Below are positions 1-39,714 of a stretch of 64,000 nt of DNA, piece after piece. Both the position numbers and the translations under genes were made by a program. Source of the stretch: Aporrectodea caliginosa (taxonomy: Eukaryota; Annelida; Clitellata; Crassiclitellata; Lumbricidae); assembly GCA_020284085.1 (NCBI GenBank), contig JACEVL010000109.1, positions 124,001 to 188,000 of the forward strand, in the 5' to 3' direction. The notes beneath the pieces are model-generated. The model did not search any database and was not told the DNA's origin. It saw nothing but the letters and a program-made list of their open reading frames with translations. Position 1 is the first letter of the stretch, and every line of letters begins with the position of its first letter.

Positions 1-949
1 CGCCAGTAGCCTAAACTTACGCACTGTATCCTTCAGGCTCCGATTCTATAAGCTTGCCATGGATTGTTATTAGATTCTTTTAACCACCTAATCACGCCGC
101 ATGTAATGTATGTACGTAATTTCTCATTTTGACATTCTAAATTATTCGCCATTGTATGTGTTTTAGCGTAGGTAGACTGCAAGTTGGATTGACGTAAGGA
201 ATTCTTGCTAAATAGAAGTGGGATTGATGAAAATAATTATTGCTTAAATAGAAGGGGGATTGATGAATAATAATTTGTCTATTACTACCTACTAAAATAA
301 ATTTTACTATAGCTTCAAACCTCATAACCATTTTCTTGCCCTATTAAAGTTGTTGAGAATTATTGAGAGCTGCTAAACTTTATTATATTTTAGACATTGG
401 TTATTGCTCAGAGTTTAAGACTTATGGTTAATTCAGAACTTTACATCCTTGACAGGATCTGAATCAGAGAAAATAGATCAGACATTTAAGCAAGTTGAAC
501 TCACATGATTGAGTTCAAATTCCCAAAGGTTCATTCTTATGAAATTGGTTACCTGTGATTTTTACATGATACCTAATTTAAACTTGGTTTAAAAAGTGCA
601 TACAACTCATTTGAACATTAGGGTGAAATAACTAATTCCGATAGTGGAATAATGACAATTTAAGTCTTTGTTTAATGTGTTTGTTGCCATCATCATAAAT
701 AATGGCTACTGTTATTTAAGTGGCTATTCTGAGCTGAATCTTTGTCCATTTCTAAAGTTGTTTCTATCTCAAACTTGGCTTATATGTATTGTATGTGATT
801 ATGCTGATTTCTAATTAATTCCACTAGTTAAACAAATAAATGGCATAAAAATAAAGCGATGTATTCTTTTAGGTTTGCACTGAGTGAAGTTAATATTTTG
901 TTACCAGGTAACTTCATGCTGATCAAGGCTATCAACCAGCAATTACAAA
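1..949. other. AT-rich stretch upstream of the zinc-finger exon
   Basis: I see no convincing gene here. The only structure is an imperfect tandem duplication of about 35 bp at roughly 207-270, around the shared words AATAGAAG and GGGATTGATGAA. An acceptor-like site ending at 907 and another ending at 939 lie just before the zinc-finger exon, so earlier exons of that gene may lie outside the window. Confidence 0.4.
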
Positions 950-1300
950 ATGAACCTTTCGCAGCCAGGTCAGAAATCACTTGGCTTTGAGAGACAAATG
1001 AAGAAAATCAAGGCAAGCCGCTCCAAAGAAAAGACAAACGAATGTAGAATATGTAAGAAAATGTTTAAGTACGCATCTGGCCTGAAGAGGCACATGATAG
1101 TCCACACTGGAGAGAAGCCTTACGTTTGCTTGCAGTGTCAGAAAGCATTTTCATTCTATTCTAGTCTGAAGACACATGCTAGAACCCATACTGTAGGTGA
1201 ACCATATCGATGTCAGCTATGCGATAAAGTGTTTAGACAACTTGCACATCTGAAGATCCACAAGAGGACCCATTTCAGCGAGAGACCTTGTAATTGCCAG
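950..1300 (+). CDS. Exon 1 (visible): C2H2 zinc-finger part of a zinc-finger/RD-repeat/anticodon-binding gene
   Basis: The exon encodes 117 residues with three classical C2H2 zinc fingers: C32-C35/H48-H52, C60-C63/H76-H80 and C88-C91/H104-H108. The first two are joined by a TGEKPY linker and the second and third by a TVGEPY linker. Such fingers normally bind DNA or RNA in the nucleus. The exon ends in phase 0 at a good donor (CCAG then GTATGT at 1301), which matches the phase-0 acceptor at 2374. The start is uncertain. ATG 950 is the first in-frame ATG after an in-frame stop at 920-922, but an acceptor ending at 939 could instead join a missing upstream exon. A basic segment rich in K and R precedes the fingers. 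The finger type is certain; whether the exon belongs to the downstream chain is inferred from phase and strand. Confidence 0.72.
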
Positions 1301-1522
1301 GTATGTTGCATGTAATTGCGTCCTCACTGTAGCAATCATTGATAACAGTGTTAAACCTATAATTATGTAAGTCCAAACTCGAAAGGATAATTCTGCAGGA
1401 AGATGCTTTGAAAATCATTCTATTTCATCACACTAGCAGTTTTCATCTGTTGGCAGTATAAGTAGCTAAGTCATGTTTAATCAACGCAACGGTGATACTA
1501 GAGGGTTTATGTGAGGCTATGG

Positions 1523-1876
1523 CAGAGGTGTCAAGAGCTGGCCCACGGCCATTTCTGGCCGGCCAATGATGTTTTTCTGGCCTACAGAGCCTTGAATTTT
1601 TTATATGGACTACACATATTTGAGAATAAAAGTTCCAATTTGTCATTTTTAAGGCTTAATGAGTTTTTATGTGATGTTTGTGACTGATACCAGATCAAAA
1701 TTAAGAATTTTAAAGCCTAATTTAACTGTTTGTTTGCTAAAAAATGCACCATTTAAGATTTAGTTTTGCCCCATAGATCCTTACCCCATTTTGCTCAGGT
1801 GCCTTTGGCACTCTGGCCCACCAGTTGCTTGAAACTATAGCCACTGGCCCACAATTAGAAATGGTTAGACACCCTG
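1523..1876. mobile_element. Non-autonomous hAT element (MITE) with 8-bp target duplication
   Basis: The ends are inverted (CAGAGGTGTC at the left, GACACCCTG at the right), as in Charlie-like hAT transposons. A perfect 8-bp target duplication GGCTATGG occupies 1515-1522 and 1877-1884. The interior of 354 bp has no coding capacity. It lies in the first visible intron of the zinc-finger/RD gene. Confidence 0.85.
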
Positions 1877-1939
1877 GGCTATGGATATCAAACTCTTGAT
1901 GGGTGTAAACATGAACACTTGGCTTCAGGTGTTATAGTG

Positions 1940-2302
1940 CAATGCTTCTCAAACTTTTCAGTGTCACGGACCGGCAGAAATTAATTTTCTGTGTCACGGA
2001 CCGGCAGGAATTTTTCCACTGCAGGAGGACCAGTGCCAAATTTATTAATTATTTCTCTGTTTCGTTTTTGATCACTTAAATTCATCAAAAATTTATTTCA
2101 ACGCATGTTTACCCAATTATGTGACTATACTGCCCTATAAATGCTATCCTAATAAGTCTTTTTGTTTTGACTTTTAAAAGTATAAAAGTCATTTCTTGAT
2201 TCCGAGACAATGTAGACCAGTTTCTTGACTCACTTTGCAAACCGTCAACTGAGGACTAGCGAACCGGCACCGGTCCGCGGACCACCACTTTGGGAAGCAC
2301 TG
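1940..2302. mobile_element. Second non-autonomous hAT element with 8-bp target duplication
   Basis: The terminal inverted repeats CAATGCTTCTCAAACT and the complement of TTTGGGAAGCACTG bound a 363-bp element. The perfect 8-bp duplication TTATAGTG is at 1932-1939 and 2303-2310. Inside, GTCACGGACCGGCAG is repeated near the left end, and the right end carries CCGGTCCGCGGACC. It lies only 55 bp after the previous MITE and 64 bp before the next exon. Confidence 0.87.
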
Positions 2303-2374
2303 TTATAGTGCACTTATTAAATTGGCTTTAATCGTGATGATGGCTTTGTTAAATGGTTGACTGTTGTGAATCAG

Positions 2375-2727
2375 GTATCATCAAAACATCTGAAACAACT
2401 GAAGGACACAATTGATATGTTGCTTGCTGCTATGCCAGAGTCTTCAACAGCCTCCGTTGTGGCTTCTGTTGGAACCGCAGCTGAAACGGTGCCAGACACA
2501 GGCAGCACACATGCTCTGCCTGGCACAAGTAATTCAATTATTCGACAACAGGAAACATCAGCTAGAAGTCGCCTAAAATTTACCAGTTTGGACATTCAGC
2601 CGTTGCCAAATGTAAACTTCAGAAAGCAGCAAGCAGTGAGAGATGGATCTTCAAAGGCCATTAGCAAGCACCAAAGAACAGAGAACAGACAACTGGGATC
2701 GAATGCTTTACGAAGACCATGTCCACC
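2375..2727 (+). CDS. Exon 2: serine/threonine-rich linker of the zinc-finger/RD gene
   Basis: The acceptor (GTGAATCAG, exon from 2375) opens in phase 0, as required by the donor at 1300. The exon encodes about 117 residues: a short predicted helix (VSSKHLKQLKDTIDMLL), then a low-complexity part rich in S, T, A and V, then a basic stretch. It ends after two bases of a codon at donor GTATGT (2728), which fits the next exon. I recognise no domain. Coding is supported by the open frame, the splice sites on both sides and the matching phases, not by homology. Confidence 0.65.
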
Positions 2728-2944
2728 GTATGTTATATTTCATCATGTTGATAAAGCAGTTTTTCTTAACTTTATGTACCCACTCAGCTACTGCATTTGT
2801 TCTATTTTGCATCATTATAAGACAATTCGATTATAAAATGTTATATGGTTGTAAATTTTGGAACGTAGATCCAAATTAATATTTGCTTTGTAACATGCCC
2901 AGTCTGTAATGCCATCTTGTCATGTTCTGGTGTGACTTGATAGT

Positions 2945-3300
2945 GGTTGGTAATGAGGACAGTACATGGTTCGAGCCTCCCTGTGGCAGTTACTGCATGG
3001 AGCCAGCTAGCCCAGTTAGCTACATTGGTAAGAGCATACATAGGCTGCGCGAGTGTGCGTCTCATGTGCCTCTGTGAAAGAGATCATGCGGATCGCAGTT
3101 CGCTTCCCGATGCTGTCCTGTTTCAGAGATTTAAATCTTGGGCTAGCATGGTCCTTGCACGTAGACCCTAAATGGCGTGGCGTCCATTCAAATGGTCGAG
3201 CAGTGGTGCAGCCTGTCACCCGATCAATAAATTGAAAAATGAGCAGGGTTGAGGCCATAATATGGTCGCTATAGAAAAATGCGAACATTTACATTTACAC
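2945..3300 (+). mobile_element. tRNA-derived SINE-like sequence
   Basis: The stretch holds pol III-type boxes: an A-box-like AGCTACATTGGTAAGAGCA near 3016 and a B-box-like GTTCGCTTCCCG near 3098, after an earlier partial head with GGTTCGAGCC near 2970. It ends with GGTCGCTATAGAAAAATGCG, also seen in the SINE-like copy ending near 35515. It lies in an intron of the zinc-finger/RD gene. Boundaries are approximate. Confidence 0.55.
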
Positions 3301-3839
3301 AGTGACGAAATTTGTGAACTTCTGAAGTATGTTTGTATGTGACAGGGCTCTCAATGGTCAAGTGCTGTAATGAGCTGTAATGTTTATACATGGTTATATC
3401 CAAATGAGCTAGCAGCTGACCTAATAACTTTAAATCTATTCAAATCAGAGCAGCAGTTGTTGAATAGTCTAAGGTAGGATAAAGTAATATGCATTGTTTG
3501 TATTTCATTTTGTGGTTTTAGATGTTGTCCAAAGCATAAATGACAATTATATCCAACAGTAGAATCTTTTTCTTTTTCAAATTATATAAACCAAATTTTA
3601 TCTTGTGATGTAGTTGTATTTTTAGCAGAATTTATTTGACGCTGTACTGCTGGAGGTTGAAAGCAGTCAATAAACATGAAGGAAAATAAACTCAAACAGA
3701 AATATTCCAAGAGTATTGGAAAGTTTTTCTATTCAAACACTAAAGAAATGATTCTAGGTTGCCAAGAGAATGATCATATATGAAGGGTCACATCTTTTGC
3801 CTTACTGGTTTCTTAGATGCTGTTCATATTTGTTTTCAG
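3301..3839. other. Intron remainder without recognisable features
   Basis: AT-rich intronic sequence between the SINE-like element and the next acceptor (TGTTTTCAG at 3831-3839). I see nothing else in it. Confidence 0.5.
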
Positions 3840-3972
3840 TGAACAGTACCGTGAAATTAAGAGAACAGCTGCCACTGATTATACCATCGCAGATAAGACA
3901 GCGTTCAGAAAGGACAACGTTCAGCCTCTGCTGAGACTTCCGGGTGATTCAGATCACTTTGGCTCTGACAAG
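3840..3972 (+). CDS. Exon 3: short linker exon of the zinc-finger/RD gene
   Basis: The acceptor TGTTTTCAG is followed by one base that completes the codon split at 2727, so phase is conserved. The exon encodes about 44 residues (EQYREIKRTAATDYT at the start, GDSDHFGSDK at the end) and stops at a phase-0 boundary before GTCCAT, a weak but legal donor. No known domain is visible. Phase compatibility on both sides is the main support. Confidence 0.6.
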
Positions 3973-4453
3973 GTCCATTCATTTTTCAGTGGAGTCATTT
4001 CATTTGTGGCTATATTTGTTTGAATATATTATTTGTGTTGTGTTTTTAGTCATACAATGTCAGATTATTTAACCAAGAGAGCTAAATTTTGGTTGAGAAA
4101 TGGAGAAGTAGGATGCCAGGATTGCCAGAGTTAAAATTGACATTTTTAGATTTGTGCTTCGTTTATACAGGATTTGCTCTGTGCCACAAAATATCATATA
4201 AAAGTACACAACATTTTTTAGAAATAAACTGGTAATAAGTTGTCATGCTCGGTTTTTATACCATTTGTCACTGCTTCTGATGTCTGGTCAATATCAATAT
4301 GTGATAGTAGTTTGGCAGTTGTCCTCAAAAACTGCATCATAGTTTCCTAAATATTAACATATTCTTATTCTATGAGTGCTTGGGAATGAGAATTCATATG
4401 ATTTGTCATATGATTACCTTTTCTATGTCTTAGTATCGATAGTTTATTTTCAG
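3973..4453. other. Intron without recognisable features
   Basis: A 481-bp AT-rich intron between exon 3 and the RD-repeat exon. I see no repeat or RNA gene in it. Confidence 0.5.
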
Positions 4454-5737
4454 CAGGTTGTCAGAAGAGGAGAATCAGGTGATGGGAGTTCGAAGCATCA
4501 CCATAACAAGATTGGAGACCTATGGGGCTGTACAACTTCTCAGTCGAAACGTCTAACAGAATACTTTCATGACCAAGAAATTTTCTCTGAACGTGCAGCA
4601 ATGAAGTCACCAAGAAGCGACTATAACAACAGAAAAGGAGATGGGATCAAACAGCCTGAGGAAAATGGATGTTCAAGAGAGTATCACAGACAAGTTCAGA
4701 AAAGTAGAGATAGAGAGAGAGAAACAGATAGGGACAAGGAAAGGTCAAGTGATAGGGATAGAGAAAGAGACTTAGACAGGTCCAGGGTCACGTCAAGGGA
4801 TAGAGAAAGAGACATGAATAGAGAGGGAGATGGAGACAGGTCTAGGGTCATGTCAAGGGATGGGGAAAGAGATGGGAACAGAGAGAGAGACGGAGACAGG
4901 TCCAGGGTCTCATCAAGGGATAGAGAAAGAGAAGGGAACACAGAGAGAGAGACGGAGACAGGTCCAGGGTCACATCAAGGGAAGGGATAGAGAGAGAGAA
5001 GGGAACAGAGAGATAGATGGAGACAGGTCCAAGGTCTCATCAAGGGATAGAGAAAGAGAAGCGAACACAGAGAGAGACGGAGACAGGTCCAGGGTCTCAT
5101 CAAGGGATAGAGAAAGAGATGGAAACAGAGAGAGAGATGGAGACAGGTCCAAGGTCTCATCAAGGGATAGAGAAAGAGAAGGGAACACAGAGAGAGACGG
5201 AGACAGGTCCAGGGTCTCATCAAGGGATAGAGAAAGAGATGGAAACAAAGAGAGAGATGGAGACAGGTCCAAGGTCGCGTCAAAGGATAGAGAAAGAGAT
5301 GGAAACAGAGAGAGAGACGGAGACAGGTCCAGGGTCACGTCAAGGGACGAAGAAAGTGACGGAGACAGGTCCAAGGTCATGTCAAGGGATGGAGAAAGAG
5401 ATGGCAACAGAGAGAGAGACCGGACCAGGTCCACAGATAGAGTTCGAGACAGGGATGGAGAAATAGAAGGAGAAAGACAATCAAAACCCATGACTAAATC
5501 AGTTTATACCCAAACTGTGAATGTAAATGATCAAGACAGAAAGGAGAGAACCAGTAAAGCCGTTCAAGAAGGGTATCGAGAAAGGTGTCTTGGGTCCACA
5601 AAATGCTCAGTGCAGTCACAAACTGTCGAGGACGAGATGGAGAAAGACGTAGTGTATGCACACACTGTGAAATTAGAACGTAATGTGGATGGTGCAGACA
5701 GTAGTTGCCCGATCAGTGACGGTTCTAGCAATACGAG
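4454..5737 (+). CDS. Exon 4: RD/RE-rich 20-residue repeat domain, frame disrupted inside the repeat
   Basis: The exon opens in phase 0 at a tandem CAGCAG acceptor. About 75 residues of mixed sequence lead into an array of 60-bp units, each encoding about 20 residues such as DRERDGNRERDGDRSRVSSR. After the repeat, frame continues through TKSVYTQTV, SVQSQTV and VVYAHTV and ends after two bases of a codon at donor GTATGT (5738). RD/RE-rich tracts of this kind are common in nuclear RNA-processing and coactivator proteins, including NCOA5. The frame changes inside the array: copies at 4914-4975 and 4976-5040 are 62 and 65 bp instead of 60, a net +7, so no single frame spans the exon. This may be natural slippage, an assembly error or removal by splicing. 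The flanking coding parts look real. Confidence 0.7.
4690..5440 (+). repeat. 60-bp coding minisatellite
   Basis: Head-to-tail units share the core GACAGGTCCARGGTC, TCAAGGGATAGAGAAAGAGA and CAGAGAGAGAYGGA. Most units are 60 bp; a few are shorter or longer. An alternation is visible: GTCTCATCAAGG units with CCAGGG and CCAAGG take turns from 5040 to 5280, suggesting that 120-bp dimers were duplicated. Confidence 0.85.
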
Positions 5738-6669
5738 GTATGTACAAATATTAATTTATTTCTTCAGCTGTATGATGTTTAAAATATGAAAATCCTTGTA
5801 ACGCAGCGTGCTAAATTTTATGCAACTACGTGGTAGAATTTTAGAAATATTTGTGTTATCTTTTGACGTTTGTACATTATGTCAATATTGCAGTTACTGG
5901 TAGACATATAGAAGTTTGCTAAAGTTGTAGTATTATTGCAAATAATTATTGCAAATCTTTGTAATCTGATGTGGCAATTTGCTTTCTCATGCATTGGACC
6001 ATACCACTTGGAACAATCTTTTAATATGCACTGTAACATATCTTATATATATTGAATTGAATTTATTTTGTAACCAAAAACATACAAAAGAAGGTTAACG
6101 ATAACACAATTACATTTGCAAAACATGTTGAGGTTACCACCTAGGAGACCCTTAGGGGTCCGAAGTGTGCCGCTAACAAGAGCCACCTATATATATTGCA
6201 TTTTATATTCTTTATACTTAAATATTACGGTGGTCCACATTTAAACACTTGTGAGTTTTAAAATGGGTCACATTTGCCATACAAGTTGAGTGCACGATCC
6301 ATTCTGCTACCATTCATGACTTACAACATTGTCAGGCCTATTCGTTATTTAGATTGCGCTTGTCGGTTTTATTTTTTGGCTCGTGTTGTAGGCCTACTAG
6401 ATTGCCATTTGGCAGTCTGTACACAGAGAGCTAAATGAGACAGAAAGACTTGTTAGATTCGAAACTCGAACCGAGTGAGAATCTAGTGTTCAGGATTCGG
6501 ACTGGGGCTCGCATCATTGTGTCTCTGACTCGAATTCGATGCATAACGGCTGTGTTAAAATGATGTGACCTTACCCATTAAATGTGCTTGACCTTCTCAA
6601 TGCTGCCCTGTAATCTAAGTAAGAGATTCTGTCCTACTGACAGTTTTTGTTGGGTTATGGTTGTTCCAG
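5738..6669. other. Intron between the RD exon and the anticodon-domain exons
   Basis: I searched this stretch for the synthetase segment that precedes the anticodon-binding domain (a catalytic-core end with HRA and WPxWLSP-type motifs) and found none. It holds a CR1-like 3' end (6045-6190) and otherwise unremarkable AT-rich sequence. Confidence 0.55.
6045..6190 (-). mobile_element. CR1-like LINE 3' terminal fragment
   Basis: Read on the minus strand this contains the same block as the other CR1-like 3' ends: GTTAGCGG, a short hairpin (GACCC-CTAA-GGGTC), then an AT-rich region ending in a TTCAAT tail. It matches the ends at 7643-7840, 16368-16500, 41150-41290 and (opposite strand) 34143-34262. 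Confidence 0.65.
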
Positions 6670-6742
6670 ACTGTTCTTACGTTCACAGAGACTGTACATG
6701 GTCATTCCAGTTTCCTCATCATATAACGACTATGCTCAGAAG
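6670..6742 (+). CDS. Exon 5: start of the threonyl-tRNA-synthetase-type anticodon-binding domain
   Basis: This 73-nt exon has an acceptor at TTGTTCCAG (6661-6669) after a T-rich tract and a donor GTCTGT after CAGAAG (6743). One leading base completes the codon split at 5737. The exon then reads LFLRSQRLYMVIPVSSSY followed by NDYAQK. This matches the first beta strand and helix of the threonyl-tRNA-synthetase anticodon-binding domain, where family members have a MVVPV...YAQKV pattern. An alternative acceptor (GTTCACAG, exon from 6689) keeps the same downstream frame in phase 0 but would not fit the donor at 5737. The usual G-P-T between PV and the helix is replaced by SSS. The identification depends on the continuation in the next two exons, which is strong. 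Confidence 0.72.
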
Positions 6743-7499
6743 GTCTGTCGACACATTCATTGTACAGGGATTTAATTTAACATTTCAGCCATCTTTCAGG
6801 TCTTCAATGGGTTGGTGTGCAGGTTTTTGCATGTGGCCCATGCCTGCAGGTGCTGAAGTTTCATTTGTGATGAGTCAATGTTATTAGAGCCAATGAAGAG
6901 ATAGGTATCATCGGCGTAATATTGATGATGATGATGATAGTTTTTGATTGCTCGAGTTCTCTATTGAATCACTAAAACTAAAAAATAGGTTACAGACATA
7001 TGGATATGTGCCCTTTAAACATGTATTATATCACTGTTGACTTTGTTGAGTTGTCAAAAAGACAAACTGAACATGTTTAGACCATAAAATATATAACTGT
7101 AATTTCATAAAGCCGTCCTTACAAAGTTCCTAAGTGCACACTGAAGCTGGGCAACCATTAAGAGCCATAAGCAAACTGGAAGAGGCTAGTTTTCAGTTTA
7201 GAATGAGAGATAGTCTCTCGGTAGGAGAGTTACGAACATGAGGACTTAGAGAGTTCCAGAAGGAGCAACTGAATGAACACCGGCCAAAAACAAGACGTGT
7301 ATCAGGAACAACATAACTGTCCAACAGATACTGATCAAAGAGAGGATCAGCCTTTAACAGAGTTGCAGGGTGTGACCATGGAAGATAAGTAAGATGGCAG
7401 ATGGTGGATTGTTTTGTGAATTTGTAAAACCCTGGTTATGTATATTAGATAGTACAAGTTGTAGATGGTAGCCATGTGTCTTTCTTTGGTCTGTTGCAG
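6743..7499. other. Intron with a LINE 3' relic and a small ATG microsatellite
   Basis: A (GAT)n run sits near 6923-6942. From about 7125 to 7375 the minus strand resembles the C-terminal coding end of CR1-like LINEs (VAPS, RNSP and related words seen again at 44090-44290). Nothing else is recognisable. Confidence 0.45.
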
Positions 7500-7614
7500 G
7501 TGAAAAGCGAGTTGGTTGCAGCCGGTTTTACATGTGAAGCTGATCTCAACTCTCGCGACACGATGAACATGAAGATCGTAAAGGCTCATCGGGCTCAGTT
7601 CAACTTCATCCTTG
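7500..7614 (+). CDS. Exon 6: middle of the anticodon-binding domain (threonyl-tRNA-synthetase type)
   Basis: The acceptor TTGCAG is followed by VKSELVAAGFTCEADLNSR, then DTMNMKIVKAHRAQFNFIL. The pattern V-x6-AGF-x-C/A-x-DL, then an L/MNxKI helix and the AQxNFIL strand is diagnostic of the anticodon-binding domain of threonyl-tRNA synthetases. Family members usually have QLAQYNFIL where this protein has HRAQFNFIL. The exon starts in phase 0 and ends after one base of a codon before donor GTAGGC. That split codon becomes Val with the next exon. In true synthetases this domain reads the anticodon loop of tRNA-Thr; an orphan domain could bind another RNA or a protein. Confidence 0.85.
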
Positions 7615-8004
7615 GTAGGCAGACTGGTTTATTGCTCTCTGATCAAATCAAATCAAATCAAATCAAATCAATTTATTGCAACCCAAAAACATAACAGAAA
7701 TATATATCTAATTGCAACTCAGAAAAAACATAACAACAATATATATCACATAACGACATAAAGAGAAAAAGAAACCAGGGTAGCAAAAGGGAAACCCAGA
7801 AGGGATATGATCCCGCTTAAGTAGGGTCCCCGTGCCTTTGTATTCTGTAACCTAAATTCATTATTGGCCTGTGAAAGAAAGAGAGATATAATGGTAAGGG
7901 CCTAATTAAATCAAATCATTGCATGAAAAGAAAAACTTAATTATAATCTTAACTAAGAACTTAACTAAATGCGGCTTTGTGCCATTCACGGTAATGTGAA
8001 GATG

Positions 8005-8357
8005 CTATGCAGATAAAAGAAGGTGTGTACGTAATCTTTTTTTAAAGATGAACAAATTATTAGACATGAGTATATAGGAAGGGATTGCATTCCATATCAG
8101 TGTCCCCTGAGACTTGATTGTATGGAGCCGAGCGTTGGAATGAACCTTAACAGAACGGAAAGTGGAGGCATTTCTAGTATAGTGGGAGTGTATATCATAA
8201 GCGTGGGGCAAGAAATCTTTGAATATCGGTGGGAGAAGTCCGTGCTCCAATCGAAAAAAGAACTCCCCAACTTGAAAATCCCTAATTTGGTCGATATTCA
8301 GTATTTTCAATTCTCTAAACAGTGGGGCAGTATGTGCCCATTTTCTAACACCAGCAA
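8005..8357 (-). pseudogene. LINE C-terminal domain, third frame segment
   Basis: This segment continues the reverse transcriptase of the LINE after a break near 8360. There one A appears to be missing from an A-run (CAAAAAGGG), which turns KRAVRLIAG into KGLFD and a stop. The C-terminal part includes FRLEHGLLPP and GTLIWNAIPSYI, the same terminal domain as in the second LINE (GPGVWSRIPLSI). Known CR1-clade elements end with such a domain. Confidence 0.75.
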
Positions 8358-9170
8358 TTAATCGAACAGCCCTTTTTGTATAATTACCAATCTTATCAAC
8401 CTAGAGGGATAGGTCATTGCCCAAATCAAATTACAATAGCTAAGATATGGATAGATGAGTGCATAATATAGATTTAACTTAACAGATTGAGGCAACAGAT
8501 AAGCAATACGACTCAAAATTCCAACATTCTTAGCAATCTTATTAGAAATCTCATTAATGTGCACTTTCCATGTCAGATGTTGATCGATATGTACCCCCAG
8601 GAATCTAGTTGATTCAACCTGTGTAAGAGGAGCATCTTTGATTGTTATACCCAAATTCTCACTAGGTGGTGTTTTTCTATGAGACTTGAATAAGATGTAA
8701 TTGGTTTTATCAAGATTCAATGAAAGTTTATTCGCCGCAAACCATTCATTTATTTTAGCAAGTTCCACATTCACAAGGCGCACCAGCTCCATCCAAGATC
8801 CATGGGAGTAAAAGACATTAGTATCATCCGCAAATAATATGAAGTACAAGGTAGGCGAAGTTTTAGCTAGGTCATTAATGTAAAGAAGGAATAGTAATGG
8901 CCCAAGGTTGGATCCTTGAGGGACACCATATTTAATCCAATTAAGTTCTGACCATACACCATTGCAGAGGACCCTTTGAGAACGTTTATCAAGATAACTT
9001 GCAAACCAGTTTAGTTGGGTACCTCTGATTCCATAGTATTCTAATTTCTTTAGTAGGATACCATGATCGACCGTATCAAAGGCCTTTGCTAAATCAAAGA
9101 AGACCCCCACCGAGTATTCGTTATTATCAATGGCCCTAGTAATCATATCTTGCATATTGACTAACGCCAT
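8358..9170 (-). pseudogene. LINE reverse transcriptase, second frame segment
   Basis: Carries the RT palm motifs: FFDLAKAFDTVDH, YGVPQGSNLGPLLFLLYIN and the catalytic FADDTN box. It follows from the upstream frame after a break at an A8 run near 9225-9233. The downstream end is a second break. Apart from these two A-run breaks the RT is intact, so the insertion is young or the breaks are sequencing errors. FADDTN with PQGSNLGP points to the CR1/L2 side of LINEs rather than RTE. Confidence 0.82.
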
Positions 9171-11332
9171 ATAAGTGGAGTGCCCCTGTTGAAATCCATG
9201 TTGGGAGGGGTATATAATGTTATAGTTTTTTTTACATAGCTGGAGAGTCTATTATACATAAGTTTTTCGTAGAATTTCGAGAAGTACGGAAGAACAGAAA
9301 TAGGCCTATAATTGGAGACATTGTCCTTTTCACCTTTCTTAAATATAGGTACTATTTTAGCAATTTTTATAGCTCCAGGGACTATTCCAGTACTTAAAGA
9401 GCAATTTATAATGTCAGCCAAAGGTTTGGCAATTCTAACTAAGTGAGGTGCGGCTAGAGAAGGATCTATATCATCAACCCCTTTACTGCGAGTTTTACTG
9501 AAATTCCTACCTATTTCTAAGATTTCCTCAGGGGTAGTTAATAAAATTCCCATTGAATTTTGCTGGGGAGACTTAAGATAATTATTAAAATTGCTGGGAG
9601 AAGGAGGTAGTTTATCAGCAAGCGACTGGGCAATATTAGTGAAAAAGTCATTAAGTCCATTGGCCATTGATTGCGCATCATTAACATTAGTCCCATTAAT
9701 TTTTAACTCCTCAATGAGCTCCTCCTCATTATTTAATTGCATCATGGAGCGAATGAGTTTCCATGTTTGCTTAAGATCACCATTAATTTTAGAAAATTCG
9801 GCCTCATAATAGCTCTTCTCAGCCTTGAGCCTAATCGACTTAAATTTATTTCTATATTCAATAAATTTCATTCTGTTCCCCTCATTTGGCGATTTAATGA
9901 ATTTCAAGTAAAGAGAATTCTTCTTCTTACAAGATTTTAGGATTCCGGGAGTCATCCATGGTTGTTTATAAACATATTTCCTAGATTTATTATGTTTAGT
10001 AATCAGCGGGAATGCCTTATCGTAAGCAAGTTTATAAATTTCCAGAAACATTTCATAAGCCATATTGGCATCCTGATTCTCACAAGCCCTCATAACAGGA
10101 TCCCAATTTATATCTGCAAGTAGCGAATCAAATTTAACAATATTTTCCTCATTAATTTTTCGAGTGGTCGTATAGTTGTAGAAATTTTTCTTAGAATTTT
10201 GTTGGGATGAGAATGAAGCAAATACTGGAAGATGATCGGACAAGTCAGAGATAATTATAGCTGCACTAACTAGCTTCGACCAGGCAGTAGAAAATATATT
10301 ATCAATCAAAGTGGACGTATAAGGAGTTATGCGAGTCGGCCTCGTGATGGATGGGAAAAGTTGATGTGAGGTCAAACAGTTGTGGAATTGGTTAGTTTCA
10401 TTATGATCATTAGTTTTCAGAAGATCGATATTGAAATCCCCCGTTATTATAAGCTCCTTTCCTCTCCCAGCAGGTCCTCGTAATAAATCCTCAAATTCTC
10501 TATTGAAATCTGACAAGTTCAGGCCAGGTGGCCTATATACTACTCCCACTGAATAAGTGGCATCTGTTAGATGAATCTTAATAAACAATTGCTCAAAAGT
10601 GTTATACACTTCCTGGTCTTTTAGCGGTGTATACTTAATACCTTTTTTAACAAACATTCCCACGCCACCACCCCGAGCATTCCCTCTTGATTTGCTTATA
10701 AAATTATAACCTGGTATATGAATGGAATCCTCAGCATTAGGCGGTAGCCAAGTCTCAGTGAGAGTGAGTATAGTAACAGGCAAATAATTCAGAATATTAC
10801 ATATTTCGTCTAATTTATAAAACACACTTCTACAATTTATGTGCAAAATTGAGAGATTGGACTCAACAGTTTCAATTTTGTCACGCCACGAGTGCAGAGT
10901 GGTATACGGACTATCCCATTTAACATTCAAGTAGTAATTTTGGTCAGGATCAGTTTCATTCTTATTAAGCAGTCTACGATTGTCGCACTCTTCAGGGAAT
11001 ACTCGTAGCTCAAGATTGTTATCGATTGATCCCAACAGGGATGGTTTAGAAACATCGTGTAGGCTATTACATACATTCACATTTTCTTCCTCCACATTCA
11101 GAGCAAGTACATTCGTACAGTTAATGCACTGCCAATGTCCGTAGTTCACTGTTATTTTAAACTCTTGGCTATAGCAATCCAAATGGTACACACCTTCACA
11201 ATTTGTACATACAATACACTCGATAGGTTCCATGATTATGTCATCACAAATACCGCATACAGATAGAGCGCCTTCAGCCATCAAAAGTGGGCCAGGGTAC
11301 GAAGGATAGAAGCCACCGCGTACAATCAACAA
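9161..11332 (-). CDS. LINE ORF: PHD finger + AP endonuclease + start of reverse transcriptase
   Basis: The 723-residue frame opens with a C4HC3 PHD-type finger (C26-C29, C42-C45, H50-C53, C69-C72). An apurinic-endonuclease-like domain follows (HINCRS, TETWLPP, GGGVGMFVKKG, GDFNID, SDHLPVF) over roughly residues 155-375, and then the RT finger region (IAKIVPIFKKGEK, NYRPISVLPYFSKFYEK). The last about 21 residues are out of frame after an A8 run, so the catalytic RT core lies in the next segment. The endonuclease nicks target DNA and the RT copies the element RNA there. PHD fingers are known from CR1 ORF1 proteins; here the finger is joined directly to the endonuclease. Confidence 0.85.
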   Translation of the reverse strand: MLIVRGGFYPSYPGPLLMAEGALSVCGICDDIIMEPIECIVCTNCEGVYHLDCYSQEFKITVNYGHWQCINCTNVLALNVEEENVNVCNSLHDVSKPSLLGSIDNNLELRVFPEECDNRRLLNKNETDPDQNYYLNVKWDSPYTTLHSWRDKIETVESNLSILHINCRSVFYKLDEICNILNYLPVTILTLTETWLPPNAEDSIHIPGYNFISKSRGNARGGGVGMFVKKGIKYTPLKDQEVYNTFEQLFIKIHLTDATYSVGVVYRPPGLNLSDFNREFEDLLRGPAGRGKELIITGDFNIDLLKTNDHNETNQFHNCLTSHQLFPSITRPTRITPYTSTLIDNIFSTAWSKLVSAAIIISDLSDHLPVFASFSSQQNSKKNFYNYTTTRKINEENIVKFDSLLADINWDPVMRACENQDANMAYEMFLEIYKLAYDKAFPLITKHNKSRKYVYKQPWMTPGILKSCKKKNSLYLKFIKSPNEGNRMKFIEYRNKFKSIRLKAEKSYYEAEFSKINGDLKQTWKLIRSMMQLNNEEELIEELKINGTNVNDAQSMANGLNDFFTNIAQSLADKLPPSPSNFNNYLKSPQQNSMGILLTTPEEILEIGRNFSKTRSKGVDDIDPSLAAPHLVRIAKPLADIINCSLSTGIVPGAIKIAKIVPIFKKGEKDNVSNYRPISVLPYFSKFYEKLMYNRLSSYVKKTITLYTPPNMDFNRGTPLIWR

Positions 11333-11594
11333 TACAGCTTAATACAAAAGAATTAGGTCAATTCTATGTAGCGAAGAACATTGTGCATTAATTCATTCTA
11401 GACATTATTCCCTTAATCATAAATTCTCGTTAATGTATCATTGATGATCATCGAGTTTCGTGCAGAGGAAAACTTATTAGGCTACTGATGCTTGGAGGCT
11501 GCTAGAAAAGCAGCTACATAAATGCAATGCATCACACTCTTCATCCTGTTCTCTGATTTCAAGTATTTCTGGTTCCAGATGGAATTTGCATTAG

Positions 11595-11770
11595 CAGCTC
11601 ATCTGCGTCCTTCACTCACTGGTCTCCTGGCAATTGGACCTTCACTTGGGATCTCCGGACAACTTCTGTGACACGATGCGGCGCTCATGAATAAGCTGGT
11701 GCCCTGTGCTCCGCTCTTAACTAGTGTTTTATAAATTTGTAGATATCGATTACAATCTGTGTCTGTATCT
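11595..11770 (+). repeat. Dispersed repeat family W, copy 1
   Basis: Contains GGACCTTCACTTGGGATCTC and GGCGCTCATGAATAAGCTGG, TGCCCTGTGCT, then a degraded AAATTTGTAGATATCGATTAC end. Other copies are at 27960-28100, 28192-28330, 33518-33570 and 61385-61497, all in the same orientation. The best copies end in (ATTACG)n. Confidence 0.6.
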
Positions 11771-12224
11771 TTTATGACCTTGGGTAACACTGTGATGTTG
11801 TGAGGTCAACCAAATTAAAATTGCTGTTCAGTTTTGTGAGGTAGCTATGTAGCAGCCTTAGCTGAGCAGAGCTCTTTTGTGAGTTCTTTAATGGCACCAT
11901 AAAATTTTATTATTATTGAATAGCAACTTGTATAGCACCGGTTTAGTTAGTGCACAAGGCATTAACATCAATGAGGTTAGTATCGAGCTAAGAGAGATAG
12001 CCTATGGTGAATAAGCATTTTGAAAAATATATTTAAGTATAGAGCAAAATGGTATGAGTTATCAAGCAGAGCATAACATATTTAATGAACTGTTTGTGAT
12101 AAAAAAAGCAGCATCAATGTTTTCTCGATGTTTATTTAGTTTCCAGTGCCCAGCAAAAAATGAAGCGTGACTGTTTAACCAATGGTTAAATTCAGCCAGC
12201 TCTCAGAACTGGCAACTTAGATTT

Positions 12225-12680
12225 GAGATCCGGCACCTAAACTATGAGATCTACCACCTGAACTATAAGATCCACCCCCTTAACTTTGAGATCCACGACC
12301 TAAACTATGAGATCTACCACCTAAACTATGAGATATACCACCTAAACTATGAGATCCACCACCTAAACTATGAGATGCACCACCTAAACTATGAGATCTA
12401 CCACCTAAACTATGAGAGATACCTACCTAAACTATGAGATATACCACCTAAACTATGAGATCCACCACCTAAACTATGAGATATACCACCTAAACTATGA
12501 GATCTACCACCTAAACTATGAGATCCACCACCTAAACTATGAGATATACCACCTAAACTATGAGATGCACCACCTAAACTATGAGAGATACCACCTAAAC
12601 TATAGAGATATACCACCTAAAGATCCACTACCTAAACTATTCACCACCTAAACAATGAGATCCACCACCTAAACAATGAG
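12225..12680. repeat. 21-bp minisatellite
   Basis: About 20 head-to-tail copies of CCACCTAAACTATGAGATMY plus one base, degenerating at both ends. Because the unit is a multiple of three and lacks stops, one frame on each strand stays open (a HLNYEIY-type heptapeptide on +, a SLGGISH-type on -). These are not genes. Confidence 0.9.
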
Positions 12681-12898
12681 AGAAGCCCCCAAAATAATGT
12701 TTTTTTCTCCAGTAATCGTCCCTATGTTTCATTATTATAGTTTATGTTTTCTGAATAGAGAATGGCAAGGATTGTTTATAGATTCGTCAGATAAGCATAG
12801 GTTTTCGATTTGCGAAGTGTAGCTGGAAGCGCGTAAATGAGTCAATGCTGCATTCAAAGGCGCAAAATAAATGAATATTTCTTGTCATTTTTCAACAG

Positions 12899-13044
12899 TT
12901 GTGGGTGAGAAAGAAGAGCGGAATGGAACGGTTAACGTTCGTACTCGTGACCAAAAGATTCTCGGCGAGCAGTCGATCGCTCATTTGAAGGAACAGTTCA
13001 AGTACTATACCGAATCAAAAGCCGCAGAGGCCAAGAGAAGCTAG
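12899..13044 (+). CDS. Exon 7 (terminal): end of the anticodon-binding domain and stop codon
   Basis: The acceptor TTTTTCAACAG is followed by two bases that complete a Val codon, then VGEKEERNGTVNVRTRDQK, then ILGEQSIAHLKEQFKYY and a stop (TAG, 13042-13044). VVGEKE...TVNVRTRD is the most conserved part of the threonyl-tRNA-synthetase C-terminus, so the domain is complete. The last about 20 residues (alanine/glutamate/lysine-rich, ending in AKRS) do not resemble the acidic-F ends of vertebrate threonyl-tRNA synthetases. No catalytic domain, editing domain or TGS domain is seen in the 12 kb upstream, so this is either an orphan domain of the zinc-finger/RD protein or the end of a synthetase whose earlier exons are outside the window. 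Confidence 0.87.
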
Positions 13045-13640
13045 ATGATTCAGTTCTTGTACATTGTGTTAAACCCAATGTTGAGTATTAAGTCACTATT
13101 AAGTGTTCATTTTCCATAAAAGTGCTGTTTAATGTTAAAAATTGCTCACGTGATGGAATGTTTCCAGTACTTCGTAGTAATTCTTCGCCAACTTCAGTTG
13201 TTGTGGTCTGCGTTAACCGATGTTGAGTGTTAAGTCTTAGGTGTTCATTTTCCATAAAAGTGCTGTTTAATGTAAAAATTGCTTTGTAACTGTTGCCTTT
13301 ACCAAGACCACTAATCACCCACCTGCATTTTGTTCAGGGTAGTGTTATGTCCAAATAGTCTAGACTCTTAAGATCTTTGCTTTATATACGAATTGAGTTC
13401 AATGCATATCTGAAATTAATAGCACATTCAGTAACCACAAACGTTTTGTTTATCAGTTAAGTATTTTCTGGTCCCTGTTGTATTTGTGATGCTTAGATGA
13501 ACAATAACAAACCTCATTAGACAATATAGTAGGGCCTATTATTAGCAACGAATATAGTGCCGGTGATTCATGCACAATGACTCAACCATTAACACACAGC
13601 GAAACTAAGCCGTGATGAGGCCAATATCTAGGTTAGACCA
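13045..13640 (+). other. Probable 3' UTR and downstream sequence with an internal duplication
   Basis: A segment of about 65 bp (ATGTTGAG...AAGTGTTCATTTTCCATAAA...TTTAATG) occurs at 13077-13146 and again at 13222-13284. The second copy lacks a few bases. No clear AATAAA signal is visible. The rest is unremarkable. Confidence 0.5.
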
Positions 13641-13644
13641 TTAA

Positions 13645-14584
13645 CCCTCGGGCTGCAAGGGGGGGTGGTTGCCACCCCCCCCTAGGTTTTTTCATCTCAA
13701 ACTTTTTCCGTATGGAATAAAAATTTGACCTTTTAGGTAGCTGTAGGGGGTTCATTTACACACGTTTTGAGGTAAAATGTGAGATGATATCTCACACCGT
13801 TCAAAAGTTATAGCCAATATACCCGAGGCACCAGGCACCAGATTTTTGACTATATCTTATCCGTCATTTAATATTAAGAGACATAAATTTTACCATTCTA
13901 TAGAGGGAATGTGGGGCTACATTTCTATGGTCACTGAGTTGACCTGAGACAACCGGAAGTGCTCAAAATAAATAATAATACGCGTAATATGTGTGAAAAA
14001 TGGCTGAATGGAAGGACTCCCCTTAGTTTTTGTCTGTAGCATATTCATTTGTCTTCCTGGAAGCGAAACAAAGATACCATTCTTTAGAGGGAATGTAGGG
14101 CTTCATTTGCATACCTACATCTTTGTCTTTTGAATACCGGAAGTGATCAAAATAAATAATAATACGCGTAATCTGTGTGAAAATGGCTGAATACAGCATT
14201 ACAACGTAAACCGATATATATGTGTAGATATATATGTATGGATGTACATTTATACTATATAAACATGTGTAGGGGTGATTTTGTGTATCTTTTATACATA
14301 GATTAGTTTCAAAACACACATAATCTTATATTTGTTTATCCAAAAAGTACAAAATGTACGCAATAATATAAAATATTGCTAATTAATGGGTTCCATTGTT
14401 AAAAGTGATGTAATTTCGAGGTGCATTCACATAATGTACAACTAAATATACCATTCTGTGCAGAAATGAATGCTGAATCCAATGCTATATTACAAGTTAT
14501 GATATGTGAAACCAAACACGAAATCCAGGGGTGGTAACCACCCCCTTGGTAGTCCGTGTTACAAAAAGCTTGGTAGCCCTAGGG
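13645..14584. mobile_element. piggyBac-like non-autonomous element flanked by TTAA
   Basis: TTAA duplications at 13641-13644 and 14585-14588 flank inverted ends CCCTCGGGCTGCAAGG and the complement of CTTGGTAGCCCTAGGG. GGTGGTTGCCACC and GGTGGTAACCACC palindromes lie inside the ends. The interior has no transposase. It carries a direct duplication of about 118 bp (13896-14012 and 14076-14194), each with CGGAAGTG, AATAAATAATAATACGCGTA and AATGGCTGAAT. Confidence 0.7.
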
Positions 14585-14588
14585 TTAA

Positions 14589-16367: not shown

Positions 16368-18905
16368 AAAAATCAATCAATCTTTATTGAAACCATCAAT
16401 ACAGTTATGTACAGTAATAGACTTCACATATCGAGATGGCAACAAGGAAGGCCCTTAAGGGATTAAAGATCCCGCTAACAGGGACACCTATTTGCTAAGC
16501 CTTAAATTAACGTAGTGGCAGGACGGTTAACAGCCTGAATTTACAGGATAACATCAAATGCGTAATTATCAAACTTAAGTCGATTCATTAAGCATAAAGA
16601 AACAAACAAAAAAGTAAATCTTAACTAACAGAGTAACAGTACTTAAGCAATCATGTCTTTTATCAAGTAAGAACGTAACATTTTTTTAAACCATTGAAAA
16701 TTAGGCACCTGCTGAATAGAAAGAGGAATTCTACTCCAAACACCTGGGCCAGTAAATTTAATGGAGAATCTTCGTGAGTTAGAGTGGGCATGAATACCAC
16801 GATAAAGTTTAGAGCTTCTAGTAAAGTGATGATGTATGTCAGATCCTAGCTGAAAGTAACCTGAAAAGTTCGGAGGCAGAAGGTCGTGGGTAAATCGGTA
16901 CATAAAAACCCCTATCTGGAAGGTCCTTATTTGGTGGAACTTAAGTAATTTAAATTTTGGAAATAGTGGGCTTGTGTGAGCAAATAACGAAGCTCCAGCT
17001 ATTATGCGTACCCCACGCTTTTGTAGTGATACTAATTTATGTAGTCTGGATTCATAGGTAGATGCCCATACTAAATTACAATACGAAATGTATGGATATA
17101 CTAGGGAGTAATATAGCTTTGCTCGGATAGAGGAAGGGAGAATGTGGGAGGTACGGTAGAGTATGCCAATATTTTTTGCAACTTTTGCCGAGATATTTTT
17201 AATGTGATCACTCCACGTAAGGTGTTGATCAATGTATACACCAAGAAATTTGGAGGAGCTAACCTGTGATATGAGGGTCCCATTCATAGACAGTAGCAGT
17301 GAATCACTGGGGGGACAAATTTTTCTGTAGGAACGAAATAGAATAAAGTTAGTTTTCTCCAAGTTTAGGGAAAGTCTATTAGCAGAGAACCATTCAGCTA
17401 TAGAGATAAGTTCACTATTTATAGTCTGCACAAGAGTGTGATAGGATTTATGGGAATAAAAGACATTTGTGTCGTCAGCAAAGAGGATGAAGGAGAGAAT
17501 AGGCGATACATTGGGTAAGTCATTGATATATAAGAGGAAGAGTAGGGGCCCAAGATTAGATCCTTGTGGAACTCCGTATTTTACCATTCTAAAGCTTGAG
17601 AGAGCGCCATTACATGAGACACATTGGAGACGTTTATCAAGGTAGCTAGTAAACCAGGCTAGTTGGGTGCCTCTGATACCGTAATTAGCTAATTTTTGTA
17701 GCAAGATATCATGATTTACGGTATCAAAGGCCTTGGCTAAATCGAAGAATATTCCAATGGAGTACTCGTTATTTTCAAACGCATTTGATATTTTATCATA
17801 CATATTCATTAGAGGCATGAAAGTAGAGCGACCCGATTGAAAGCCGTATTGGTGGGAGAATATGATGTTAGATTTTTCTACAAAGTTGCTAAGCCTGTCA
17901 TACATAACTTTTTCGAAGTATTTGGCAAAGAAAGGAAGGATAGAAATAGGCCTATAGTTTGTAGGGTCATCCCTATCTCCCTTTTTGTATATAGGAACAA
18001 TTTTGGCAATTTTTATAGCATGAGGTACTACCCCAGTATTAAGGGAGCAATTAATAAGTTCAGCAAGCTGGGGAGCAATTAAAGGAATATAAGATATAGC
18101 AATATGAGGATCGATGTCATCAACACCACGACTATGACTGTCATGAATAGAGTGGCTCAAATTATTAATTTCTTCAGGTGAAGTCGGAATAAGGCCAAAG
18201 GAGTTAGGCATGGGGGGGTCAAGGTAATTGGTAAAGGAAAATCTAGAATTTGGAATTTGTTCAGCTAGAGTTTGGGCAATGCCGGAGAAGAGATTATTAA
18301 GAGTATTTGCCATCGTTTTGGGATCATCATTTTTAATTCCATTTATTTTAAGAGATTCAATTTTAACACTGTGTTCACCCATTTTTACGATAGTGCGAAT
18401 GAGGTTCCAAGTTTTCTTTAGATTATTACTATGCTTGCTAAATTCGACTGCATAATAATACTTTTCAGCTTTCATTCTGATTGTTTTGAATTTATTCCTG
18501 TAGGAAATAAATTTATTTTTATTGGCAAGGGTAGGAGCTTTTATATATTTTAAATGTAGTTGGGCTTTTCTCTTGCTAGATTTAAGGAGCCCACGTGTCA
18601 TCCAAGGGTGCTTGAACACAGGTTTCCCCTTGGTCCTGTTAGGCTTAATCGGGAATGCTTTATCGTAATTACGTTTGTATTCGACCATGAACACGTCATA
18701 GGCCTTGTTGACGTCCTTATTATAACAGGCTTCAAGCATTGGAGACCAATCGGCCTCAGAAAGATAATTACCAAAGTTTGCCCTTCCCTCTTCACTAATA
18801 ACCCGAGAGTCATCAATAAAGGAATTCTTACAACTACGCATCTCCAAATTAAAGCAGGATAGAACAGGCAAATGGTCAGTTTTAGATATTTTAATTGTGT
18901 CTGTG
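16368..18905 (-). mobile_element. 5'-truncated CR1-like LINE with an open RT frame
   Basis: Read right to left the element begins inside the end of the endonuclease (SKTDHLPV), runs through a complete RT and C-terminal domain, then a 3' UTR with the GCGGGATC...AATCCC block (16440-16500), and ends in a (TTGAT)/(TGAT) tail at 16368-16392. It is inserted in the hAT element 15606-19039. Confidence 0.88.
16643..18871 (-). CDS. LINE reverse transcriptase, uninterrupted 742-residue frame
   Basis: The frame covers a linker with KHPWMTRGLLKSSKRK, the RT fingers (IAKIVPIYKKGDR, NYRPISILPFFAKYFEK), the palm (FFDLAKAFDTVNH, YGVPQGSNLGPLLFLLYIN, FADDTN) and a C-terminal domain (GPGVWSRIPLSI). The endonuclease has been lost by 5' truncation, so the copy cannot be autonomous. 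No in-frame stop interrupts it, which implies recent insertion. It differs clearly in sequence from the LINE at 7643-11340, so at least two related CR1-like lineages are present. Confidence 0.87.
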   Translation of the reverse strand: MPVLSCFNLEMRSCKNSFIDDSRVISEEGRANFGNYLSEADWSPMLEACYNKDVNKAYDVFMVEYKRNYDKAFPIKPNRTKGKPVFKHPWMTRGLLKSSKRKAQLHLKYIKAPTLANKNKFISYRNKFKTIRMKAEKYYYAVEFSKHSNNLKKTWNLIRTIVKMGEHSVKIESLKINGIKNDDPKTMANTLNNLFSGIAQTLAEQIPNSRFSFTNYLDPPMPNSFGLIPTSPEEINNLSHSIHDSHSRGVDDIDPHIAISYIPLIAPQLAELINCSLNTGVVPHAIKIAKIVPIYKKGDRDDPTNYRPISILPFFAKYFEKVMYDRLSNFVEKSNIIFSHQYGFQSGRSTFMPLMNMYDKISNAFENNEYSIGIFFDLAKAFDTVNHDILLQKLANYGIRGTQLAWFTSYLDKRLQCVSCNGALSSFRMVKYGVPQGSNLGPLLFLLYINDLPNVSPILSFILFADDTNVFYSHKSYHTLVQTINSELISIAEWFSANRLSLNLEKTNFILFRSYRKICPPSDSLLLSMNGTLISQVSSSKFLGVYIDQHLTWSDHIKNISAKVAKNIGILYRTSHILPSSIRAKLYYSLVYPYISYCNLVWASTYESRLHKLVSLQKRGVRIIAGASLFAHTSPLFPKFKLLKFHQIRTFQIGVFMYRFTHDLLPPNFSGYFQLGSDIHHHFTRSSKLYRGIHAHSNSRRFSIKFTGPGVWSRIPLSIQQVPNFQWFKKMLRSYLIKDMIA

Positions 18906-19042
18906 CGCGCTGTGCACTATTGAAATATTTCATAATTATGAAACACAAGGAAAAAATGCTTAAATTTGTGGTGGAGGCCCCTATGTGGTGGAGGCCCCTG
19001 TGCACTGGCACATAGTGCACATGCCTAAATCCAGGCCTGACA

Positions 19043-38854: not shown

Positions 38855-39714
38855 CTGAAACGGAAATCAACCATAAATAGTTATATACAGTGACGATGAC
38901 TTTATTGGAATGAATAGATAAGTTTTATGACGTTATAATTATCGTAATATCTTATATTATTATGTTGTATTGCATAGTGTTGTGTGGTATTGTACATGTA
39001 TGCGTTTCTGTGGCATAATATGAGATGATGTAAATTGTTAAATGATTTGTGTTGTATGTGATATCATAATTATATGATATGATGTGATGATATATTATAT
39101 TGTTTTGTATTGCATTGTACAGTATTGAATTTACGATACTTCATATTATATTATATTTATTGTATTATGTGACAACGGAAAATAATTAATTAAGAAAGGG
39201 AATAAAACAGAACAGCTAAGCAACATGCGCATAAAACATACAAAACGACAGGCATAGATAGAGAGACAAACAGGCATATATAGACAAACGCAGACCATGT
39301 CAGACATAGCCAAAATAATAGACACAAAGATATACGCGATGAGACAATAATAACGACAGATATGCAAGAACAGGAGAAACAGACAGACAAGAAGATAGAA
39401 AGACAGACACAGACAGAAATTGTCATTATAATCAGCAACTTCCATAACGCCAGTGTCCAGTGCACAAAGCATCAAGCAATTGAGCACTATAGTCAAACCG
39501 CATGCAGTAGGGAGCGACAGATACTGACAGACAGAGAAACAGACAAACAGGCAGAGAAAGACACAGAGAAAAACTAGAGGTACATGAAGAGACAAAAATG
39601 AGTAAATTAGAAACGAAGAGGTATAGAACGATGCGCGTGATAATAAATCTACTATTTAGATTGAAGTTGAACGAATATCAATCAAAGACTATTATTGTGA
39701 TCCTGCTGACTGAC
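38855..39714 (-). other. Intron of the zinc-finger gene
   Basis: The 860-bp intron contains TATATT-rich sequence (38880-39180) and a GACA/CAGA-rich low-complexity tract (about 39240-39590). No other feature. Confidence 0.65.

Follow-up and report, generated by a model that had tools for sequence, protein, structure and literature searches.

A threonyl-tRNA synthetase anticodon-binding domain behind a zinc-finger/RD locus: a probable three-parent chimeric gene

Can the anticodon-binding (AC) domain of a synthetase become the tail of an unrelated protein? The question is raised by a locus near the beginning of bases 124001-188000 of contig C108 (967,500 bases), a stretch of 64,000 nucleotides that is called the window here, in a genome of 1.1 Gb in 4544 contigs whose host, judged from the genome's genes, would be an animal. 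A preliminary description read seven forward-strand exons of this locus as one gene, which joins C2H2 zinc fingers, an RD/RE (Arg-Asp/Arg-Glu) repeat and the AC domain of a threonyl-tRNA synthetase (ThrRS), and likened its product to the nuclear coregulator NCOA5. We consider it probable, well short of certain, that the locus is a lineage-specific chimeric gene with three parents, built by DNA duplications. From the earlier account, an orphan ThrRS AC domain placed 3' of a zinc-finger/RD locus holds good, whereas the continuous reading frame and the kinship with NCOA5 do not.

The origin of the tail can be read from its last three exons (the coordinates of all features are listed in Table 1). 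Exons 5-7 indeed encode a whole AC domain, which is matched by the Pfam profile PF03129 with E 2.3e-19 over 87 of its ~94 positions. By profile and sequence similarity the domain is of the TARS1/ThrRS type, as ThrRS chains are listed in the PDB search at E 1e-22 and the thrS profile matches at 3.3e-16, below that profile's whole-protein cut-off. A whole-genome search with the full ThrRS P0001 gave 21 matches, 18 of them at C1046:129068-140977, while the other three are AC exons, that is, exons 6 and 7 of the window and exon 7 again on the short contig C3671. A separate ThrRS gene, TARS1, is therefore present at C1046:129065-140980. Its model comprises 18 exons and 702 residues with no internal stop, excluding the start codon, which sits in an exon outside the model, and it is identical to P0001 at 673 of the 702 residues. 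Note that a genome search with PF03129 returned four loci, read as GlyRS-, ProRS- (two) and HisRS-like, and missed TARS1, presumably because the domain is split by introns. No catalytic, editing or TGS part of a synthetase was found in the window, and none of the 21 matches places catalytic exons elsewhere on contig C108. Splicing of the AC exons to catalytic exons outside the window, which would have overturned the preliminary description, thus has no partner on this contig among those matches; lacking these domains, the window locus does not encode a ThrRS enzyme.

The exon borders and the phases 2/0/1 of exons 5-7 are those of the last three TARS1 exons. The similarity extends into the introns: a block of 125 bp ahead of exon 5 is 78% identical, one of 135 bp within intron 5 is 71% identical, and one of 79 bp ahead of exon 7 is 75% identical, besides three shorter ones. 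Since these flanking introns still align to TARS1, the tail was copied as DNA, not as RNA. Its alignable part begins near window 6249, within a TARS1 intron, and the segment holds part of this intron, which precedes the third-last TARS1 exon, along with the three final exons, introns included; repeats have enlarged it since. On the 3' side of the window's stop codon, no convincing TARS1 similarity was found (best E 0.056). In a tree of AC domains (32 rows), the window domain groups with the genome's own TARS1 and P0001 (support 97/87). A repeat at window 6321-6541, which lies inside the TARS1-derived intron, is 91% identical to C278:106988-107210.

Then, where do the exons in front of this tail come from? 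Exons 2-4 had no match better than E 0.38 among 214 proteins, and a protein search with region 20-372 was dominated by zinc-finger proteins. Their relative, a sister gene on contig C91, was unlisted in the search with exons 1-4 and surfaced only by DNA comparison, in which the blocks shared by the window and C91 are colinear and 64-84% identical and take in exons 2, 3 and 4 as well as the introns; we call the common RS/RD-rich gene gene X. Within 40 kb around the C91 gene, the last part of which is N, neither a zinc-finger exon nor an AC exon turned up at E up to 0.1. Exons 2 and 4N show dN/dS 0.58 (0.38-0.85) between C91 and the window, and their length difference is in frame; therefore, both look coding. 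In our reading, the C91 gene possibly has a different first exon and a candidate next exon at C91:427959, for which tblastn against the window gave nothing better than E 3.4. This candidate has no match in Pfam, and the PDB search gave an engineered repeat-like protein (E 0.0009) followed by weaker chance-level rows only. It resembles an NCOA5-type AC domain by eye, a likeness that was discarded as the local alignment is no better than those of shuffled sequences (p 0.13).

The head belongs to yet another family. With three complete fingers, exon 1 is of the C2H2 zinc-finger kind, and it is one member of a large family in this genome (at least 336 matches). Comparison with nine loci of the family yielded blastn blocks to the C513 loci L034 and L035 at 567-789 (78.7%), 718-929 (73.6%) and 947-1306 (71.5%), and one weaker block (L037) extends to 1315. 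By eye, exon 1 is cut off at the beginning of a fourth finger. The first join is confined to about 22 bp beside the exon 1 donor, in the apparent first codons of that finger. The second join, between middle and tail, lies between 6027 and 6249, where an interspersed repeat with at least 36 genome copies is situated (it accounts for 36 of the 41 matches that a DNA search of this genome gave, a lower bound as only 40 of the 160 candidates received a score). Comparison with the rest of the window revealed no retrotransposon 3' end at this join. The segments thus trace to different loci and meet at phase-compatible joins, as in exon-shuffled chimeric genes. As to the finger family itself, the window exon and the loci L034 and L035 share the start SRSKEKT.EC..CKK, several family loci lie on C513, and the C2H2 family is very large.

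When were the pieces brought together? Against each of the three sources, most of the longer blocks show about 71-79% identity (a 447-bp block shared with C91 has 64%), and from these similar raw identities the pieces may have been joined at roughly one time. In the AC tree, the tail was copied later than the split from P0002 and P0003 and, on weak support (97/72), earlier than that from P0001.

All six introns proposed earlier have GT and AG at their ends. When splice sites are scored with a matrix drawn from the TARS1 model's 17 introns, good values are obtained for the donors at 1300, 5737 (within the best 0.3% of GT sites) and 6742 and for all acceptors, each among the best 2.2% of AG sites in 1-14000; for exon 4, a second AG (exon start 4457) outscores the one at 4454. 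One continuous frame, on the other hand, had been claimed from agreeing splice phases, and this fails in exon 4 (1284 nt), which is entered and left in different frames. Ten spacings of the RD repeat were measured. Seven of 60 bp and one of 42 bp keep the frame, while those beginning at 4899 and 4961 are 62 and 65 bp, a net +7 that shifts the frame by +1. The disruption is located between about 4930 and 4990; frame A terminates at the stop 4988-4990, and frame B continues open to the AC domain. The matching RD exon of the C91 sister, which is short, is open in one frame with a length of 2 modulo 3, so that the shift in the window is either derived or an error. A second copy of the region that could decide was not among the matches listed for exons 1-4 and for 5420-6745, where the only near-identical match is the window itself. 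The broken frame may represent a real allele, recent decay or an assembly error. Three of the nine exon combinations tried are open to the final stop (1-2-5-6-7, 1-2-3-6-7 and 1-6-7), and only the first of them (345 aa), which avoids the frameshift by skipping exons 3-4, retains the whole AC domain. The locus may be expressed as one protein, or only through such skipping.

Has the copied domain been under constraint? It is identical to that of the genome's own TARS1 at 71 of 110 residues, with no stop and one 3-bp indel, and dS is 0.71, dN 0.22 and dN/dS 0.31 (bootstrap 0.16-0.55), a pairwise figure that includes the constrained TARS1 branch. These values suggest that the copy was probably constrained for part of its history. 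If the two branches have equal shares of the synonymous changes and the window branch carries nearly all of the amino-acid ones, as the tree suggests, dN/dS of the window branch would be about 0.6. The ratio of gap openings to mismatches is 1 to 82 in exons and 9 to 71 in aligned introns (Fisher p 0.008), and in a neutral simulation with 110 changes (the synonymous count under a clock), none of 400 runs had as few non-synonymous changes. The allele-like copy of exon 7 on C3671 is open as well, with one amino-acid and one silent change (2/146).

For conserved positions, 117 ThrRS rows were used (120 listed of 478, less 3 without the domain-cutting motif). The window differs from 15 of the 50 columns that are conserved in at least 90% of them, and the genome's own TARS1 from two of these 15, one being an alignment edge. 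According to a report on the human enzyme (PMC6430810), Arg663, Glu680 and Arg689 bind the anticodon or anticodon-like loop. Their window counterparts, placed by spacing (17 and 9 residues) and conservation, are Val51, Glu68 and Arg77, so that two of the three are kept, whereas all 117 rows have Arg, Glu and Arg. By the residues named there, the window domain departs from the ThrRS set, and the loss argues against normal reading of tRNA-Thr. Compared with TARS1, the domain is whole from the PFWLSPRQ counterpart to the C-terminus, and from its sequence the AC fold would be retained. The differences are PFWLSPRQ to LFLRSQRL, the C-terminal DAEEKF to EAKRS and the Arg663 counterpart to Val, apart from the TGS, editing and catalytic parts that only TARS1 has.

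Several observations weigh against a functional three-parent gene. The donors of exons 2, 3 and 6 are weak, as 7.5%, 8.6% and 13.3% of GT sites score as high as those at 2727, 3972 and 7614, the last being letter-identical to the homologous TARS1 donor, which is itself in the matrix; AATAAA is absent between the stop codon and 13716; and the RD exon is out of frame as assembled, so that a literal seven-exon mRNA stops after 457 codons. Among the protein matches listed (120 of 478 and 120 of 654; candidate lengths about 444-1412 and 254-806 residues), no chimera occurs, and all of them carry the catalytic domain PF00587. The AC branch of the window is 0.7 in the tree, compared with 0.02 for the TARS1 copies, and 13 conserved positions that the genome's own TARS1 keeps are changed; therefore, much of the copy's history may have been relaxed or neutral. 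Shorter assumed branches leave neutrality unrejected (as few non-synonymous changes in 12% of runs with 90 changes and in 72% with 75) and give a chance of no stop of 0.1-0.2, the simulated chance of no stop is 0.07-0.2 throughout, and the neutral simulation alone is thus not decisive. Finally, exon 7 is not significantly more conserved than its flanks between C3671 and the window (p 0.079).

Which other explanations would accommodate these points? The chimeric origin might be right and the gene be decaying, the frameshift leaving a pseudogene or a 457-aa finger/RD protein without the AC domain. This is possible, if somewhat unlikely. It would account for the stop in the RD exon, the fast AC branch with its changed positions and the absence of chimeras among the database matches listed, but frame B past the shift remains open, as do the AC exons, all three, and exon 7 on C3671, and a small assembly error in the 60-bp repeat array would look alike. 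A little less probable in our view, the TARS1 copy would be an unfused chance fragment, the finger/RD gene ending elsewhere and the AC exons being silent or having their own promoter. Phase agreement at one join has a chance of 1 in 3, the exon 3 donor is weak, and the exon predicted to follow in gene X was sought in the window without success, all of which suits this explanation; it sits poorly with the strength of the donor at 5737, with the absence of AATAAA and ATTAAA between 5737 and 6577, and with an AC frame and splice sites kept at dS 0.7, which would be unexpected without an upstream exon or start. That the assembler joined three unrelated pieces is very improbable. A repeat does lie at one join, others lie in introns, and the RD array is irregular, but most blocks are roughly 20-30% diverged from their relatives and are therefore not misplaced reads of those loci; moreover, the contig has 967,500 bases, and exon 7 and the flank downstream of it, though neither join, occur independently on C3671.

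The NCOA5-like coregulator of the preliminary description has, in our judgment, the smallest chance of all. NCOA5 has an LxxLL receptor box and a C-terminal part. In its favour, an RD-rich tract does precede an AC-fold domain in the window, although out of frame when read literally from exon 1. But the window domain is not of the NCOA5 sequence type: the NCOA5 domain 1v95 is unlisted for it at E up to 10, though present in the library, and the genome has a separate NCOA5-like gene on C125. The AC exon of that gene is 35% identical (E 1.6e-7), and another exon follows it in order about 3.6 kb further downstream (44%, E 0.35 alone). One-against-one BLASTP of the window domain and the C125 AC exon covers residues 8-76 at 28.8% (E 1.9e-5), a similarity that any two AC-fold members would be expected to show. 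LxxLL was absent from the two stretches checked (the middle RD array not included), and the open reading frame ends at 13044, right after the AC domain, leaving no C-terminal part. By these tests, the window gene is not an NCOA5 orthologue, and the likeness is one of analogy. The NCOA5-like AC exons of the genome (L054-L057) lie at C125:2758611-2762506, C361:355443-355640 and C369:1302741-1302944; the first looks like the NCOA5 gene, and the latter two (E 0.003 and 0.012) may be further NCOA5-like copies.

How could the three-parent gene that we favour have arisen? A copy of gene X would have gained a zinc-finger exon and its upstream DNA at the 5' side, while its fourth intron would have received the last three TARS1 exons and introns at the 3' side. 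As both introns involved, that of TARS1 and the recipient one, are of phase 2, the AC exons would be readable as new terminal exons, with transcription presumably running from the 5' end through exon 7. If expressed, the product would most likely be a DNA-binding finger protein of the nucleus that has a flexible RD tract and, derived from TARS1, an accessory tail for binding RNA or protein. A working gene of this kind, in which the ThrRS AC domain is a putative RNA-sensing or protein-docking tail that changes in RD-array length or skipping of exons 3-4 switch on and off, is only a tentative proposal.

Table 1. Positions of the segments, exons and other features in the window
Feature	Position	Strand	Evidence
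Segment 1, zinc-finger-family DNA	567..1306	+	blastn to C513 loci L034/L035; ~380 bp upstream of start plus exon 1
Head/middle junction	1307..1328	+	zinc-finger-family blocks end 1306; C91 similarity from 1329
Segment 2, copy of gene X	1329..6027	+	colinear blastn blocks with C91:420986-426443
High-copy interspersed repeat between segments 2 and 3	6051..6188	+	80-95% identity to genome copies
Segment 3, TARS1 3'-end copy	6249..13044	+	intron blocks align to C1046; borders and phases identical
Exon 1	950..1300	+	start codon; three complete C2H2 fingers (Pfam zf-C2H2, 3 stretches); donor CAG/GTATGT
Exon 2	2375..2727	+	353 nt; open reading frame and splice sites; 53% identical to C91 over about 100 aa
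Exon 3	3840..3972	+	weak donor; 57% identical to C91 over its residues 11-44
Exon 4, RD/RE exon	4454 (or 4457)..5737	+	60-bp repeat array from 4760; C91 counterpart 425550-426034
Exon 5, AC domain start	6670..6742	+	counterpart of TARS1 exon C1046:139592-139664
Exon 6, AC domain middle	7500..7614	+	counterpart of TARS1 exon C1046:139964-140078
Exon 7, AC domain end and stop TAG	12899..13044	+	counterpart of TARS1 exon C1046:140832-140980
Non-LTR retrotransposon open reading frames in intron 6	8358..11338	-	endonuclease PF03372, reverse transcriptase PF00078 (Pfam)
21-bp tandem repeat (CACCTAAACTATGAGATCTAC) in intron 6	12234..12681	+	allele-like contig C3671 ends within
Second non-LTR retrotransposon	16643-18916	-	reverse transcriptase (Pfam)

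In addition, the first open reading frame of the retrotransposon in intron 6 opens, by eye, with a cysteine-rich, PHD-like stretch. Window 13645-14586 (about 0.94 kb) is absent from C3671, where the flanks match at 91-95%, that is, a presence/absence insertion. On the minus strand, 37782-40450 is probably another finger gene: the open reading frame 39695-40450 has two C2H2 stretches by Pfam, and the neighbouring 37782-38924 has none by Pfam and one finger-like stretch by eye.

No published zinc-finger/ThrRS AC chimera was recognised in the literature searched. Chimeric genes of the jingwei type are products of exon shuffling and partial gene duplication. The window locus resembles them in being a new gene made from pieces of older genes with phase-matched introns, and differs from them in having three pieces, relatives that are recognisable in the same genome, and a synthetase AC domain as the captured tail. 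Orphan synthetase-like AC folds are also known from POLG2 and GCN2; those are ancient and widespread, while the window domain, which likewise would have the AC fold without synthetase function, is seen only in a single genome. Orphan domains of synthetase origin, that of NCOA5 among them, are old, and their capture is no longer visible. Here, by contrast, a single genome still shows the kin of both donor and receiver along with the introns and phases, and therefore the steps from a synthetase tail to a putative nuclear-protein domain are directly testable. With NCOA5, as far as its architecture and the structure 1v95 go, the window gene shares an AC-fold domain that stands behind an RD-rich tract and apart from any synthetase; it differs in its TARS1-type domain, in the fingers in front and in the lack of the NCOA5 C-terminal part. 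If expressed, it would represent a second, independent RD-plus-AC architecture, and would show what an AC domain keeps and loses once it is freed from tRNA charging.

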